Shown here: positions 37,997 to 44,239 of the stretch, in pieces
Numbering within the stretch: position 1 is the first letter of the stretch
How the letters are laid out: each line of letters begins with the position of its first letter
Assembly: GCA_023381255.1 (NCBI GenBank)
Contig: JAMCTX010000010.1
Span: forward strand, 1 to 64,000
Length of the DNA stretch: 64,000 nucleotides
Source of the DNA: Nitrososphaerota archaeon
GTDB taxonomy: Archaea; Thermoproteota; Nitrososphaeria; Conexivisphaerales; UBA164
Direction: 5' to 3'
Notes under the pieces: generated by a model
What the model was told of the DNA's origin: nothing
The model's input: only the letters and a program-made list of their open reading frames with translations
Database searches by the model: none
Translations under genes and position numbers: made by a program

Positions 37997-38434
37997 TCAC
38001 ACAATCATGGAAGCTAGGTTTGCTATCCTGGGCCACTTTTCGGCGGCTTCCGAGGCCACTGGCCCCCTTATCTCTGTTCCTTTAAGATCACCTTCAGGAG
38101 TGATAAGAACAGCAGCATTGTCCTCAAATGATACGCGATCACCAGATATGCGCCTCATGGGATATCTCTGCCTTACAATTATTGCATGGAAAAGCTGCTT
38201 TCTGACCTCTGGGGTGCCTACCCTAACTACCACAACAACTTCATCTCCAATAGCGGCTGATGGAACACGCTTTAACCTTCCCTTATATCTGATAACCTGC
38301 ACAACCTTAAGCTTTTTAGCCCCTGTGTTGTCTGCACAGTTGATCATGGCTGTGACTGGAATGCATTTTGTAATATGTGGTTTATATTCTTCAACGCCTT
38401 TTGCAGAAACTGCCCTTGTCTTTTCCCCTGGCAT
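37997..38434 (-). CDS. rpl14: Ribosomal protein uL14
   Basis: INCADNTGAKKLKVVQVI. Confidence 0.97.
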   Translation of the reverse strand: MPGEKTRAVSAKGVEEYKPHITKCIPVTAMINCADNTGAKKLKVVQVIRYKGRLKRVPSAAIGDEVVVVVRVGTPEVRKQLFHAIIVRQRYPMRRISGDRVSFEDNAAVLITPEGDLKGTEIRGPVASEAAEKWPRIANLASMIV

Positions 38435-38435
38435 T

Positions 38436-38783
38436 CTACACAGTCACCTTACCCAGCATTATATGCGATAGGTTCTTTCCAAGAGGCCTGCATTCAGCTA
38501 TTGCAACCAAATCGCCTACACTTACAGTGACGCATGAAGGTACACGGGCGTGAATCGTGCTGCCCCTCCTTTCAAATCGAGTAAACTTTGAATTATAGGC
38601 AGGATACTCTACCCCTATTACTGCTGCCTTTTTCATCCTCAAACTTTGCACCCTTCCCACAATCACCTTTCCCCTGACTTTCAGGTGACCGTGATATGGG
38701 CAATATGGGTCAGAACATGAGCCTGAAGGTTGGGCCACCTTGATTCCCAAGCTGCTTATCATTATGGATCTAACCTCTCCCAT
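38436..38783 (-). CDS. rps17: Ribosomal protein uS17
   Basis: CPYHGHLKVRGKVIVGRV, VGDLVAIAECRPLGK. Confidence 0.95.
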   Translation of the reverse strand: MGEVRSIMISSLGIKVAQPSGSCSDPYCPYHGHLKVRGKVIVGRVQSLRMKKAAVIGVEYPAYNSKFTRFERRGSTIHARVPSCVTVSVGDLVAIAECRPLGKNLSHIMLGKVTV

Positions 38784-38962
38784 GCCCTTTTAGCAATGCT
38801 GCTGCCGTTGTATAGCCTTCCATTAACCTCAAATAAATTGCCAGCCTTTGGAACAATGCTGATATGACCAGAATTGATCCAGAACGTGTTTTTGGTTTCA
38901 TATACTAGCATGCCTTCCACATCAGTGTTTTTAACCTTTATTGAATCCCCAAGTTTTATCAC
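38762..38962 (-). CDS. rnp1: Ribonuclease P protein component 1 (Rpp29-like)
   Basis: Short Sm-like protein located between uL29 and uS17 as in other archaea. Confidence 0.8.
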   Translation of the reverse strand: MIKLGDSIKVKNTDVEGMLVYETKNTFWINSGHISIVPKAGNLFEVNGRLYNGSSIAKRAWERLDP

Positions 38963-39165
38963 GATTTAATTCCCCTCTTTTTCATTTCAGTTAAAACGCG
39001 CGCCATGTTGCGCCTGACGCTCTTTATTGACCCGGATTCCTTTGCCAGCATTCTGGTTACCCTCAGGTTCCTGAGCCTAAGTGATTCTTTCCTGAGCTCA
39101 TCCAAGTTCTTTTTAAGGTCTTCGTCACTCAGTTTTGTTACCTTTATCGCTTTCAATTTTTTCAC
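38959..39165 (-). CDS. rpl29: Ribosomal protein uL29
   Basis: LSDEDLKKNLDELRKESLRLRNLR. Confidence 0.93.
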   Translation of the reverse strand: MKKLKAIKVTKLSDEDLKKNLDELRKESLRLRNLRVTRMLAKESGSIKSVRRNMARVLTEMKKRGIKS

Positions 39166-39751
39166 CCTCCTTTTTTATGCGGAATTCCGGCTGATATTTG
39201 TATGCTATAGTAACCTTTACCCCGTACAACCCCATTTTCATCAATATGTGTTCTACAGCGGTCCTCGTATAAAATTCGCGAGGGAACCCACTTTTTGGAA
39301 GCACCCCCTCAGTAAATTTCTGGAATGCCGCCCTTTCACTCCTTATCTTTCCCTGGAGCTTGACCTCTATGCCAATGGCACCCGCGTTCATCGCCTCATT
39401 CATTACACCTGTCACAGCCCTTCTAAAAGCAACACCCTTTTGTAGCGCATTGGACAGCCTCATGGCTATAGCCTTTGGATCAATAGCAGGATTCTGAATT
39501 TCCATAGCATTGACGGTGATATCCTTTAAAGAAATTTCCTTTGATATGTCTTCCATAAGGGATCTGATGCTTGATCCATGGGGTCCAATTACCAGCCCGG
39601 GCCTCAACGCGAGCACGTTAAGCCTGGTCCCAAGGGGTGTTTTTTCAATTGTCATATCTATAAATCCTGCCTGCTTGAGGTTAGCGTCTAGGTACTCCTT
39701 TAGCATCACGTTGCGCCTGGCCTCAGCAAGAAGTGGATAATAGTTTGTCAT
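39125..39751 (-). CDS. rps3: Ribosomal protein uS3
   Basis: KH domain RPGLVIGPHGSSIRSLMEDI. Confidence 0.95.
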   Translation of the reverse strand: MTNYYPLLAEARRNVMLKEYLDANLKQAGFIDMTIEKTPLGTRLNVLALRPGLVIGPHGSSIRSLMEDISKEISLKDITVNAMEIQNPAIDPKAIAMRLSNALQKGVAFRRAVTGVMNEAMNAGAIGIEVKLQGKIRSERAAFQKFTEGVLPKSGFPREFYTRTAVEHILMKMGLYGVKVTIAYKYQPEFRIKKEGEKIESDKGNKTE

Positions 39752-40206
39752 ACTGCCCTCGCCACAATTTCCATATGAACAAGAACCTTGTTTCTGGGAG
39801 ACGATCTTCCAAATGCCCGGGGAATATTTCTCTTTAACTTTCTTCCAGGATAAGCTGCCACATGAACCAAGACCATGCTCGAAGGGTCAAGGCCCTTATA
39901 GTCGGCTACTGATTCAACGTTGTCCAGTAATTTTAAAAATAGTTTTGCTGCCTTAACTGGATGCTTCCCGGTTCTAAATCCTTCCACCCCGTGATGGGCC
40001 ATCTTCAGGTTATACCTCCTGAACGGAACCAGTCTCTTCATTGATACAACTTCCTGAAGTGCCAGCCTAGCTCTGTCAATTGTCATGCCCTTCAGATAAA
40101 CAGCCAGTTCCCTGGCATCCTTGGGGCTTACATCTACCTCTCTCAGGCTTCCCCTTGCATCTGAAGCCTCTGTGTAATCTTCAAACGAATACCCAAATTC
40201 TGACAT
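39748..40206 (-). CDS. rpl22: Ribosomal protein uL22
   Basis: VSPKDARELAVYLKGMTIDRARLAL. Confidence 0.95.
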   Translation of the reverse strand: MSEFGYSFEDYTEASDARGSLREVDVSPKDARELAVYLKGMTIDRARLALQEVVSMKRLVPFRRYNLKMAHHGVEGFRTGKHPVKAAKLFLKLLDNVESVADYKGLDPSSMVLVHVAAYPGRKLKRNIPRAFGRSSPRNKVLVHMEIVARAV

Positions 40207-40265
40207 TACCTTCTCTAATCTCTAATTAGTTACTTTAAAAACTTTCCTTGAAAGCCATGAAACTT

Positions 40266-41234
40266 TTATGGATTATAAGCCAGCGGCCCAAACCCTGCCC
40301 CTGAAAGGTATATGCCTATTGCAAAAACGGCAAGTATTATTATTATAGCTATTATATCAGATTTTTTTATGGTTGGTTCATTATAGTATGTTCTTTTGGG
40401 CATAGCCCTGAATCCACGTATATCTGCAGAAATTGCGATGTTCTGAGCTCCTTTTAGAGTCCATATAACGATAGAAGCTATTATCAGGATTACTATTTTC
40501 ATCTGCTCGAAAAACCTCCTGATCATTGCGTCAATTTTTAATCCAGCGCTACCTGTAAAATCAAATCCTCGGGCTCTTGCGGCATCAGTTATGGTTATTG
40601 TTGATTCAAGTATTTTTGGTATTGACGTTATGCCGACAATCAACCCAAATCCTATTTCAACTGGAATTTTCGATTTTTCCAGTGAAACAAGAATGTCAGA
40701 AGGAGAACTTGTGAAGACCAGAAGGAATCCTGAAGCTATTCCGGTTGAGGCCCTGAACGCAATCTGCAAGCCATAAAATATACCCTGAGTAGAAAACCCG
40801 TAGGCACCTATTGACTGAAATGCGGTTGGAAAGAGAATCAGAAACGTGTCCCTGCCAAACAGAAGGGCAAGCGTCTCAGGCGGCGTAAACATCCCTTCAG
40901 TCCATGCCGTGCCTATAAACGTTGCAAGGGTAAGCGGTAACACAATCCTGTACTTTGATACCGGATCTGTGGTCCATATATACATCAGCAGCAAGACGAC
41001 TAGAAAAATCAAAGATATGTACCATATGGTTATTGCGCCTATGGTTGTCAAAACCACTGCAAGAAGAATTTTTGTCCTTGGGTCTATTTTGTACAGAAAT
41101 GACTTCCCAGAGACAAACTGAAAGAGTGACATATAACCTCTGAATCCAATTATTTTCCATATCAGATAAATAGTTAGAGCTGGCCCAAGCGTTATAAGGA
41201 CTAATGCCATTACCCAGGCTTCAACAACTTCCAT
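40266..41234 (-). CDS. ECF transporter T component (CbiQ/EcfT family)
   Basis: LEKSKIPVEIGFGLIVGITSIPKILESTITITDAARARGFD (Ala-Arg-Gly motif). Confidence 0.88.
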   Translation of the reverse strand: MEVVEAWVMALVLITLGPALTIYLIWKIIGFRGYMSLFQFVSGKSFLYKIDPRTKILLAVVLTTIGAITIWYISLIFLVVLLLMYIWTTDPVSKYRIVLPLTLATFIGTAWTEGMFTPPETLALLFGRDTFLILFPTAFQSIGAYGFSTQGIFYGLQIAFRASTGIASGFLLVFTSSPSDILVSLEKSKIPVEIGFGLIVGITSIPKILESTITITDAARARGFDFTGSAGLKIDAMIRRFFEQMKIVILIIASIVIWTLKGAQNIAISADIRGFRAMPKRTYYNEPTIKKSDIIAIIIILAVFAIGIYLSGAGFGPLAYNP

Positions 41235-41278: not shown

Positions 41279-42475
41279 TCAGATTTTTGAAAATGCGTTT
41301 TCCAGATCAGATATTATGTCTTCTGCATCTTCAAGGCCCACTGAGAGTCTGAGCAGGGAATCCGTGATGCCCAGCTTTTCCCTATCCATTTTATTTATGG
41401 AAGACGACGCTGAAAGGACCGGATAGGTCATTATGCTTTCAGTGCCACCGAGACTAGGAGAAGGCTTTATCAGGCTAAGTGATTTTAAAACTCTTATTGA
41501 TTCATCCCTGCCCCCTTTGATCCTGAAGCTTACAACTCCGCCAAACCCTCTGAACATCCGCTTTGCGATGTTATGATAGCTGTTATTTTCCAGACCAGGA
41601 TACATAACATCGGTAACCTTGCTGCTGGAAGCAAGGTACTTTGCGACTTTTAATGCATTTTCCTGATGCCTTTCCATCCGTACACCAAGCGTTTTTACGC
41701 CCCTCAATGCCAGATAGGCGCTGAAAGGGTTAAGTATGGTGCCAAGCATTCTCCTCCATTCCCAGATATCTAGCATGTTTTTCCTGCTTCCGGAAACCGA
41801 TCCCCCAATGATGTCATTATGCCCAGAAATGTATTTTGTTAGACTTTCAAGTGACAGGTCTGCCCCATTTTTGATTGGCTTGAAGTTGTATGGACTAAGG
41901 AACGTATTATCAACAATTAGCTTTATGCCTGATTTTCTTGTTCTTTCAGAAACCTGCTTTATGTCAATTACTTTTAGTGTCGGGTTTGTCATGACTTCAA
42001 TAAAAACAATTGCTGTTTCAGAATCTATTTTAGACACAATATCATCAGCTGACGGGTATGCCTTCTTGGTGTGCACGCCAAATTTTGCCAGGTCTTCGGC
42101 CAGCTTTATGGAAGTTCCATAAGCTTCAGAAGTTATTACAATGTTATCCCCGGCCTTGAGATAATGCAGGTAAACGGATGATATGCCTGCCATGCCACTA
42201 TTAAAGCAGAGTGAATCCTCTGAACCTTCAAGCTTACTGATAACCTTCTCCAGTGCCATTACTGTGGGGTTTTCTTCCCTGGAATATTTCAAGTCAACCC
42301 CCCTTTCACTCTTCTTTGCTGGACCGCGCTGTTCAAACATGGAAGAAAGGAAGATTGGAGGAATAAATGCACCTGTAGCTTCGTCGAAGTATTCGTGACC
42401 GTGAATCGAATCTGTATTATCCAACTTTAATCCTATTCCATATAGAAATATAAAAACCCTTTTGAAAATTCCCAA
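41279..42475 (-). CDS. Cys/Met metabolism PLP enzyme (cystathionine gamma-synthase/lyase family)
   Basis: YSREENPTVMALEKVI, SLTKYISGHNDIIGG, LSVGLEDAEDIISDLENA. Confidence 0.93.
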   Translation of the reverse strand: MGIFKRVFIFLYGIGLKLDNTDSIHGHEYFDEATGAFIPPIFLSSMFEQRGPAKKSERGVDLKYSREENPTVMALEKVISKLEGSEDSLCFNSGMAGISSVYLHYLKAGDNIVITSEAYGTSIKLAEDLAKFGVHTKKAYPSADDIVSKIDSETAIVFIEVMTNPTLKVIDIKQVSERTRKSGIKLIVDNTFLSPYNFKPIKNGADLSLESLTKYISGHNDIIGGSVSGSRKNMLDIWEWRRMLGTILNPFSAYLALRGVKTLGVRMERHQENALKVAKYLASSSKVTDVMYPGLENNSYHNIAKRMFRGFGGVVSFRIKGGRDESIRVLKSLSLIKPSPSLGGTESIMTYPVLSASSSINKMDREKLGITDSLLRLSVGLEDAEDIISDLENAFSKI

Positions 42476-42488
42476 CAGGAATTATTGA

Positions 42489-42995
42489 TTACTTGCCCAA
42501 AAACAGTTTAAGCTGCTGCTGGCAGTTGCTGCAAAGCATCGGGTATTTTTCATCAACCTGTTTTAGCTCTGAAGCATAGCTCATTATGCATCCACTGTCG
42601 CTGCAGTGCCCAAGTCCCAGAAAATGGCCAAATAGGTGGGCAGCTTCTTTCATTATCCTTTCCCTTGCCAGCTTTCCATCAGAAGCAAGCCTGCGCTCAG
42701 AAAGCACTGCAATTCTGAGTTTGGGATCTGCTATGCCAAATATCCTAGTTCCTTTTTCGTCCTTGATATCATCATCCGTAATATATATCGAATAGTATGT
42801 TTCGTGGTTCTTTTTTTCACTGGAAAGTATTTTCAAAATTCCCTCTACACTTAACCCCTTTTCTACAGTAACCTGGGCTATTGGGTCTGTTATGATGTTC
42901 AGCCCATAAATTGCGGCTGCTGCTCGATAGCTTTCAACGTATGTTGTATAGTATCCGTTGATGCCCATCAATCCAATATTTAGTTTATTGTTCAT
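42489..42995 (-). CDS. amzA: Archaemetzincin-like protein with substituted catalytic Glu
   Basis: EAAHLFGHFLGLGHCSDSGCIMSYA...CSNC; archaemetzincin Cys/His pattern, but HLxxH instead of HExxH. Confidence 0.88.
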   Translation of the reverse strand: MNNKLNIGLMGINGYYTTYVESYRAAAAIYGLNIITDPIAQVTVEKGLSVEGILKILSSEKKNHETYYSIYITDDDIKDEKGTRIFGIADPKLRIAVLSERRLASDGKLARERIMKEAAHLFGHFLGLGHCSDSGCIMSYASELKQVDEKYPMLCSNCQQQLKLFLGK

Positions 42996-44239
42996 TCAAT
43001 TATATCCCCGTTCTTAGGGCATATAGCCTTTATGCCCATTCCAGCTAGCTCCTGCGCCATGGATTCGCATGAATCCCCGTCACCATGAACCAAAATGACA
43101 GTTGGTGATCCCTTCATCTTCCTGAACATTTCGAGCAACTGCGACTTTCCAGAATGGGAGGAAAGTTCAAACTGTAATACCCTTGCCTTGACACTGGTGA
43201 GTTTGCCGTCAAGCATAACTTCACCTTCATCCACAAGCGACCTTCCCGGCGTGCCCTCAACCTGGTATGATACAATTGCTATCCCATTCTTTGGGTCGGT
43301 GGATATCTTCCTGCTGTAGAACACTGAAGCACCACCAACAAGCATTCCTGCTGGGGATATTATGCTGGCATGCTTTTTAATGGCCTTTCTCCTTTCTGCC
43401 CATCCATTTATGTATTTCACCGATTTAAGAGCACTCTTGAGCCCATTTGGGTCCTTAATGAACCCGGGGTTTTTGAGCAGAATGTCGTTTATGGTGAGAG
43501 CCATACCATCCATATAGACATCGTGCTTGAAATTGTTATAATAGTAAATCTCTGCTACCTCCTGAGCCCTTCCTACCGCAAATGAAGGAATTAACACTGT
43601 GCCCCCACTTTCAATGACTTCATTTGAAAAATCAATTAGCCTCTTTTCCTCCTTTCCCCTATCTTCGTGTTCCCTTGTTGCATAGGTGCATTCTGATATG
43701 ACGTAATCAACTTCAGGAAGGTCATACGATGCCGGTTCAAGCAGTCTGGATGCTATATGATTTATATCCCCGGTGTAAAGCACTTTTTTACTGCCTTTGA
43801 TGTAGACCATTGCGCTTCCTGGTATATGGCCCGCATTCAAAAATGTAACATTAAGACCATCAACGCTGAATTCTTCATTATATTCCTTGGGATTGCTCAT
43901 CCTTATCAGGTTTTCAACCTCAGCAGATGTAAAAGGCAATCTTTCGCCGCTTATCTTAAGGAGGTCTTTAAGGAGTATTTCGCTAATCTCTATTGTTGGC
44001 CTTGTAGCGTAATTGGGAATTCCCTTTCCTACATAGAGGTAAGGCTCATAACCTATATGATCAAGGTGAGCGTGGGTCGTTATCAATGCGTTAATATCCT
44101 TAGGCCTGACGTGCATGGGATGAACCATATTCTTCCCAGGATTAAGTCCATAGTCTAAAAGGAGCGTTGTTGCATCATCCTTTACCAAAAAACCCGAATT
44201 ACCAACTGTGCCTGCGGCACCTAGTATCTTTATTTGCAT
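42992..44239 (-). CDS. Beta-CASP metallo-beta-lactamase RNA-processing nuclease
   Basis: THAHLDHIGYEPYL, GHIPGSAMVYI, YTGDIN, SFAVGRAQEV, SSHSGKSQLLE. Confidence 0.92.
   Translation of the reverse strand: MQIKILGAAGTVGNSGFLVKDDATTLLLDYGLNPGKNMVHPMHVRPKDINALITTHAHLDHIGYEPYLYVGKGIPNYATRPTIEISEILLKDLLKISGERLPFTSAEVENLIRMSNPKEYNEEFSVDGLNVTFLNAGHIPGSAMVYIKGSKKVLYTGDINHIASRLLEPASYDLPEVDYVISECTYATREHEDRGKEEKRLIDFSNEVIESGGTVLIPSFAVGRAQEVAEIYYYNNFKHDVYMDGMALTINDILLKNPGFIKDPNGLKSALKSVKYINGWAERRKAIKKHASIISPAGMLVGGASVFYSRKISTDPKNGIAIVSYQVEGTPGRSLVDEGEVMLDGKLTSVKARVLQFELSSHSGKSQLLEMFRKMKGSPTVILVHGDGDSCESMAQELAGMGIKAICPKNGDIIE

Follow-up and report, generated by a model that had tools for sequence, protein, structure and literature searches.

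The biological role of archaemetzincins, the M54 family of metallopeptidases, is poorly known, and several of them are inactive in vitro despite an intact motif. CarG of Myxococcus xanthus carries the sequence HQx2Hx2Ex2HCx4CxMx16Cx2C, coordinates two zincs and has no protease activity. Its gene is located downstream of carD and is translationally coupled to it, and the two products form a tight CarG-CarD complex (PMC8156234). In AMZ-tk, a Glu-to-Gln change (E183Q) leaves minimal activity (PMC4681839). A 2024 review of inactive metallopeptidases makes no mention of M54 or archaea (PMC11266112). Here we describe an archaemetzincin gene from the archaeal family UBA164 (GTDB; Conexivisphaerales, Nitrososphaeria) in which the catalytic Glu is replaced by Leu. 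It is highly probable that the product is a lineage-fixed pseudo-archaemetzincin, not a peptidase and kept for another function.

The gene occupies positions 42489 to 42995 on the minus strand of the window, the 64,000-nucleotide stretch of DNA that we analyzed. It is an uninterrupted ORF of 168 amino acids (aa) with an ATG start and a TAA stop, assigned by Pfam M54 and an AlphaFold2 (AF2) model. On the minus strand, codons 42638 to 42603 (CAC CTA TTT GGC CAT TTT CTG GGA CTT GGG CAC TGC) encode HLFGHFLGLGHC, residues 120 to 131, where the canonical motif is HExxHxxGxxHC. H120, H124 and H130 are the zinc-ligand His residues, and C131 is the first Cys of the Cys4 site. The general-base Glu of other members is replaced by Leu121, encoded by CTA at 42633 to 42635 on the minus strand. 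Further along on the same strand, C136-I-M138 (42582 to 42590) supplies the second Cys of the Cys4 site and the Met of the Met-turn, and C155-S-N-C158 (42522 to 42533) supplies the last two Cys. Thus, the full set of three His and four Cys ligands and the Met-turn are all present. A first-pass annotation had read an HLFGH-type motif in place of HExxH, followed by C-x-M and CSNC, with every zinc-ligand His and Cys kept, and these readings hold for an intact gene that Pfam places in M54. The protein scores 62.9 bits against PF07998 (M54; cut-off, 24.4), so the motif sits in a genuine archaemetzincin. With NCBIfam, it stays under the cut-off of both the archaemetzincin model NF033823 (96.7 bits; cut-off, 145) and NF033824, the model for nonproteolytic, CarG-type myxobacterial proteins (64.3 bits; cut-off, 250). 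A phmmer search of the PDB matched the four known archaemetzincin sequences. The AF2 model, built from seven Leu-bearing sequences, has a mean pLDDT of 88.7; its best Foldseek matches are the archaemetzincin structures 3lmc, 2x7m, 3zvs and 4axq, with a TM score of 0.83 to 2x7m when normalized by the query. The source genome (1.28 Mb, about 85% complete) has a single M54 copy, and we found no second, active one either there or in the Leu-bearing relatives.

Which relatives share the Leu? The first-pass annotation had proposed an alignment against Thermoplasmatales. This was the wrong lineage, since the relatives are Conexivisphaerales, but the suggestion that Leu might be lineage-fixed proved right. 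Among 67 distinct aligned M54 proteins sampled across the class and phylum, all 7 members of one clade have Leu and the other 60, all complete, have Glu. The Leu proteins come from seven species in three genera of family UBA164: g1 (two species), g2 (four) and g4 (one). A fourth genus of the family, g3 (three species), has HEIGH, and the complete M54 proteins of the other families of the order all have Glu. We then scanned 84,980 species genomes for the exact motif HL-x-GH-x2-G-x2-HC-x4-C-x-M and obtained six records, all within one lineage: UBA164, EvPrim.Bin21, KMA_Bin21, KMA_Bin22 and 4229S_bin6, labeled Conexivisphaerales, and DRTY3_bin.13, labeled Nitrososphaeria. A search of 398 phylum genomes for other non-Glu residues at this position, with a pattern that covered A-, C- and T-first codons, returned the window gene only. 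In a tree, the seven Leu proteins form one clade (support, 100/99) that is sister to the Glu-bearing genus g3 (96/89), indicating that Glu was lost once. The family is described as likely microaerophilic, and thermal habitats account for nearly all occurrences of its order (PMC10833072). Separately, family f35 of the same phylum holds weak M54 homologues (L091 and L092 of genus g76 and L093 of genus g118) that lack the whole HExxHxxGxxH zinc site and keep the Cys4 part, as in LEGCKNQCVMRG...YYCEDC. These would make up another, distinct type of dead archaemetzincin.

We next asked what else distinguishes the Leu proteins. Twelve positions are invariant in all 67 proteins: H120, H124, H130, C131, C136, M138, D148, C155, R113, K116, E117 and G123. 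Three ligands of the Cys4 site, C131, C136 and C155, are thus fixed; the fourth, C158, is His in one Leu species, UBA164 (CNDH). We considered this substitution as a sign of decay and rejected it, since the Glu-bearing L032, L034 and L035 also end in CxxH. All seven Leu proteins have lost E121 (conserved in 60/60 Glu proteins), R46, which belongs to the R-x-Q motif (58/60), and edge-strand N83 (52/60) and F84 (F or Y in 60/60), so that neither the edge-strand N-F-x-F-G nor the R-x-Q motif of active members can be found in any of them. In the window protein, residues 79 to 84 (DEKGTR; 42744 to 42761, minus strand) run up to and into the beginning of the edge strand, where the N-F of active members would be. 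D79 and G82 are among seven residues that arose in the Leu clade and do not vary within it, together with N13, Y23, K92, E100 and S105. Glu100 (42696 to 42698, minus strand) stands where the listed Glu proteins have no acidic residue. In the alignment, the segment that links the second strand to the backing helix is also shorter in the Leu proteins; this is the place of the archaemetzincin-specific insertion, and the edge strand and bulge-edge segment act in substrate binding (PMC3427221). Judging from the alignment, the catalytic base and the substrate-facing positions went together while the metal-binding positions stayed. Leu is unable to act as a base, and this makes proteolysis by the window protein very unlikely, as far as its sequence can tell.

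The genes on either side suggest possible partners. Directly upstream on the minus strand (42992 to 44239) is a gene for a KH-less beta-CASP metallo-beta-lactamase ribonuclease of 415 aa (Pfam RMMBL, Beta-Casp and Lactamase_B_6), whose best PDB relatives are aCPSF1/FttA and TTHA0252 and which retains its catalytic motifs. Its stop codon overlaps the archaemetzincin start in the sequence ATGA (42992 to 42995). In relatives, candidate archaemetzincin starts mostly overlap the nuclease gene by about 8 to 20 bases, and a few are separated from it by a short gap. The nuclease gene is directly upstream of M54 at all seven Leu loci and in the Glu-bearing sister genus, in 30 of the 40 class genomes with M54 above the cut-off (our tally) and at 7 of 30 loci in the wider phylum. 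Among the sequences examined, a change of the nuclease motif E-S-T-Y to E-C-T-Y is shared by all seven Leu species and confined to them. Elsewhere in the source genome there is a further beta-CASP protein of 632 aa, the size of aCPSF1. We looked for co-loss of the nuclease with M54 as a sign of dependence and did not find it: almost all genomes of the class carry the nuclease, many of them without M54 (G002, G008 and family f7, for example), so it does not need the archaemetzincin. We found no paper linking archaemetzincins and beta-CASP proteins. On the downstream side is a gene for a pyridoxal phosphate (PLP) enzyme of the cystathionine gamma-synthase family (41279 to 42475, minus strand; the true start is probably inside the listed ORF). 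It is next downstream at all seven Leu loci and absent from that place in g3, which makes its product a rival partner. Past the archaemetzincin operon, at 37997 to 41234, lie a CbiQ-like ECF transporter gene and, next, ORFs that by our reading resemble ribosomal proteins. Other genes follow in the g2 and g4 relatives, the first resembling glutamyl-tRNA synthetase, pointing to a rearrangement specific to the source genome or genus.

Could the Leu be a sequencing or assembly artefact? The named Leu-bearing genomes are all metagenome assemblies, but the residue occurs in seven species from separate assemblies and is encoded by synonymous codons (CTA or CTT, against GAG in g3), which refutes this explanation and leaves it a practically negligible chance. 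The same Leu in six other species bears out the first-pass view that a single sequencing error was unlikely. We also give hardly any weight to the idea that the gene lost its function and is degrading as a passenger in its operon. Along the stem branch that leads to the Leu clade, the archaemetzincin did change about 4-fold faster than the neighboring nuclease (1.14 versus 0.30 changes per site), whereas comparable stems are nearly equal (0.62 and 0.55 for g3; 0.65 and 0.56 for f4); the relative excess is smaller when all branches are counted. Apparently, a burst of change came along with the loss of Glu. However, the frame is open in seven species, the metal ligands and helix core are invariant, and NG86 estimates of dN/dS are low: 0.057 for the pair of g1 species (dS, 1.30) and 0.037 for one pair of g2 species (dS, 0.52). 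Such strong purifying selection (0.04 to 0.06) means that the gene is functional and refutes decay as the sole explanation. The first-pass annotation would have given up its idea if the relatives all had Glu and the gene were becoming a pseudogene; instead, Leu is fixed in the clade and the gene is under purifying selection. Its proposal of a pseudoprotease retained for zinc binding or a structural role gains support from these two observations, from the kept ligands and from the lost substrate-binding positions. The annotation mentioned neither CarG nor the overlapping beta-CASP gene. It counts against this proposal that AmzA from both M. kandleri and A. fulgidus was inactive in vitro even though it has the Glu (PMC3427221).

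If the protein is functional, what does it do? The first-pass annotation also raised a noncanonical mechanism. Zinc chemistry of an unusual kind, hydrolytic or not, with the base supplied by another acid such as the newly fixed Glu100 or by a group on the substrate, would fit the intact three-His site of all seven proteins and an acidic residue 100 that is fixed only in this clade. We regard it as decidedly improbable: the N-F of the edge strand and the Arg of R-x-Q disappeared at the same time, which points to a loss of peptide binding too, and in the model Glu100 lies between strand 95-99 and a long helix that carries His at its far end, a position from which contact with the zinc is unlikely. 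A role as zinc store, chaperone or sensor that involves no dedicated protein partner is somewhat less improbable, though still a minority prospect. Both metal sites are kept and there is no active M54 copy, but the overlap with the nuclease gene and the clade-invariant N13, Y23, D79, G82, K92, E100 and S105, all off the metal sites, suggest a defined interaction surface. We favor, at a probability of roughly 0.6, a catalytically dead archaemetzincin that is kept by selection, stabilized by zinc and acts like CarG by binding a partner, for which the beta-CASP ribonuclease would be the best candidate. Glu was lost once, in the common ancestor of the three UBA164-family genera, and selection kept the gene. 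The modeled protein has the metzincin fold, and zinc is very likely still bound at the three-His and Cys4 sites. With Leu in the place of the general base, the zinc-bound water could not be activated for peptide hydrolysis, and the substrate edge strand has been remodeled. What remained would most likely be a noncatalytic, zinc-stabilized protein that binds a partner, as CarG does in Myxococcus, with the product of the overlapping upstream gene as the leading candidate. The specific step, binding through the two-zinc scaffold with the nuclease as the first candidate, we put forward only tentatively. The operon order may be an inheritance from an active ancestor, the nuclease is kept in many genomes that lack M54, and the cystathionine gamma-synthase-like protein competes as a partner. 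Slightly more doubtful still is the wider scenario in which archaemetzincin has long been paired with the KH-less beta-CASP ribonuclease in archaea, and in family UBA164 the protease activity was dropped and the zinc-bound scaffold kept as a subunit that regulates the nuclease, an independent archaeal counterpart of CarD-CarG.

How does this protein compare with the known systems? It shares with AmzA of Methanopyrus and Archaeoglobus, AMZ-tk of Thermococcus and M54 in general the zinc ligands, the Met-turn and, in the model, the fold (TM score of 0.73 to 0.83 to AmzA). Unlike AmzA and AMZ-tk, it is without the catalytic Glu, the edge-strand Asn-Phe and the Arg of R-x-Q, and the archaemetzincin-specific insertion of its N-terminal domain is shortened. 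The mammalian pseudo-ADAMs ADAM7 (HQLGH) and ADAM29 (HHLGH) are likewise metzincin pseudoproteases that kept the zinc-ligand His and lost the Glu (PMC11266112); they belong to another metzincin family, are membrane proteins and have disulfides in place of the Cys4 zinc. With CarG, the likeness goes further. Both are members of the archaemetzincin family in which the catalytic Glu was replaced and the three His and four Cys ligands were kept, so that both zinc sites appear to be retained; both have 16 residues between the Met and CxxC, and the gene of each overlaps or is coupled to the gene upstream. The differences are that Glu became Gln in CarG and Leu here, and that CarG is bacterial, confined to myxobacteria and partnered by CarD, while the present protein is archaeal and its coupled gene encodes a beta-CASP ribonuclease. 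That this clade dropped the catalytic residue and yet kept the protein implies that part of archaemetzincin function is noncatalytic, and the conserved overlap with the nuclease gene names a specific candidate partner. Pseudo-archaemetzincins were already known from myxobacteria; next to CarG, the protein of family UBA164 would be a second, independent example of an archaemetzincin fold turned into a two-zinc binding module and the first archaeal example that we have found.
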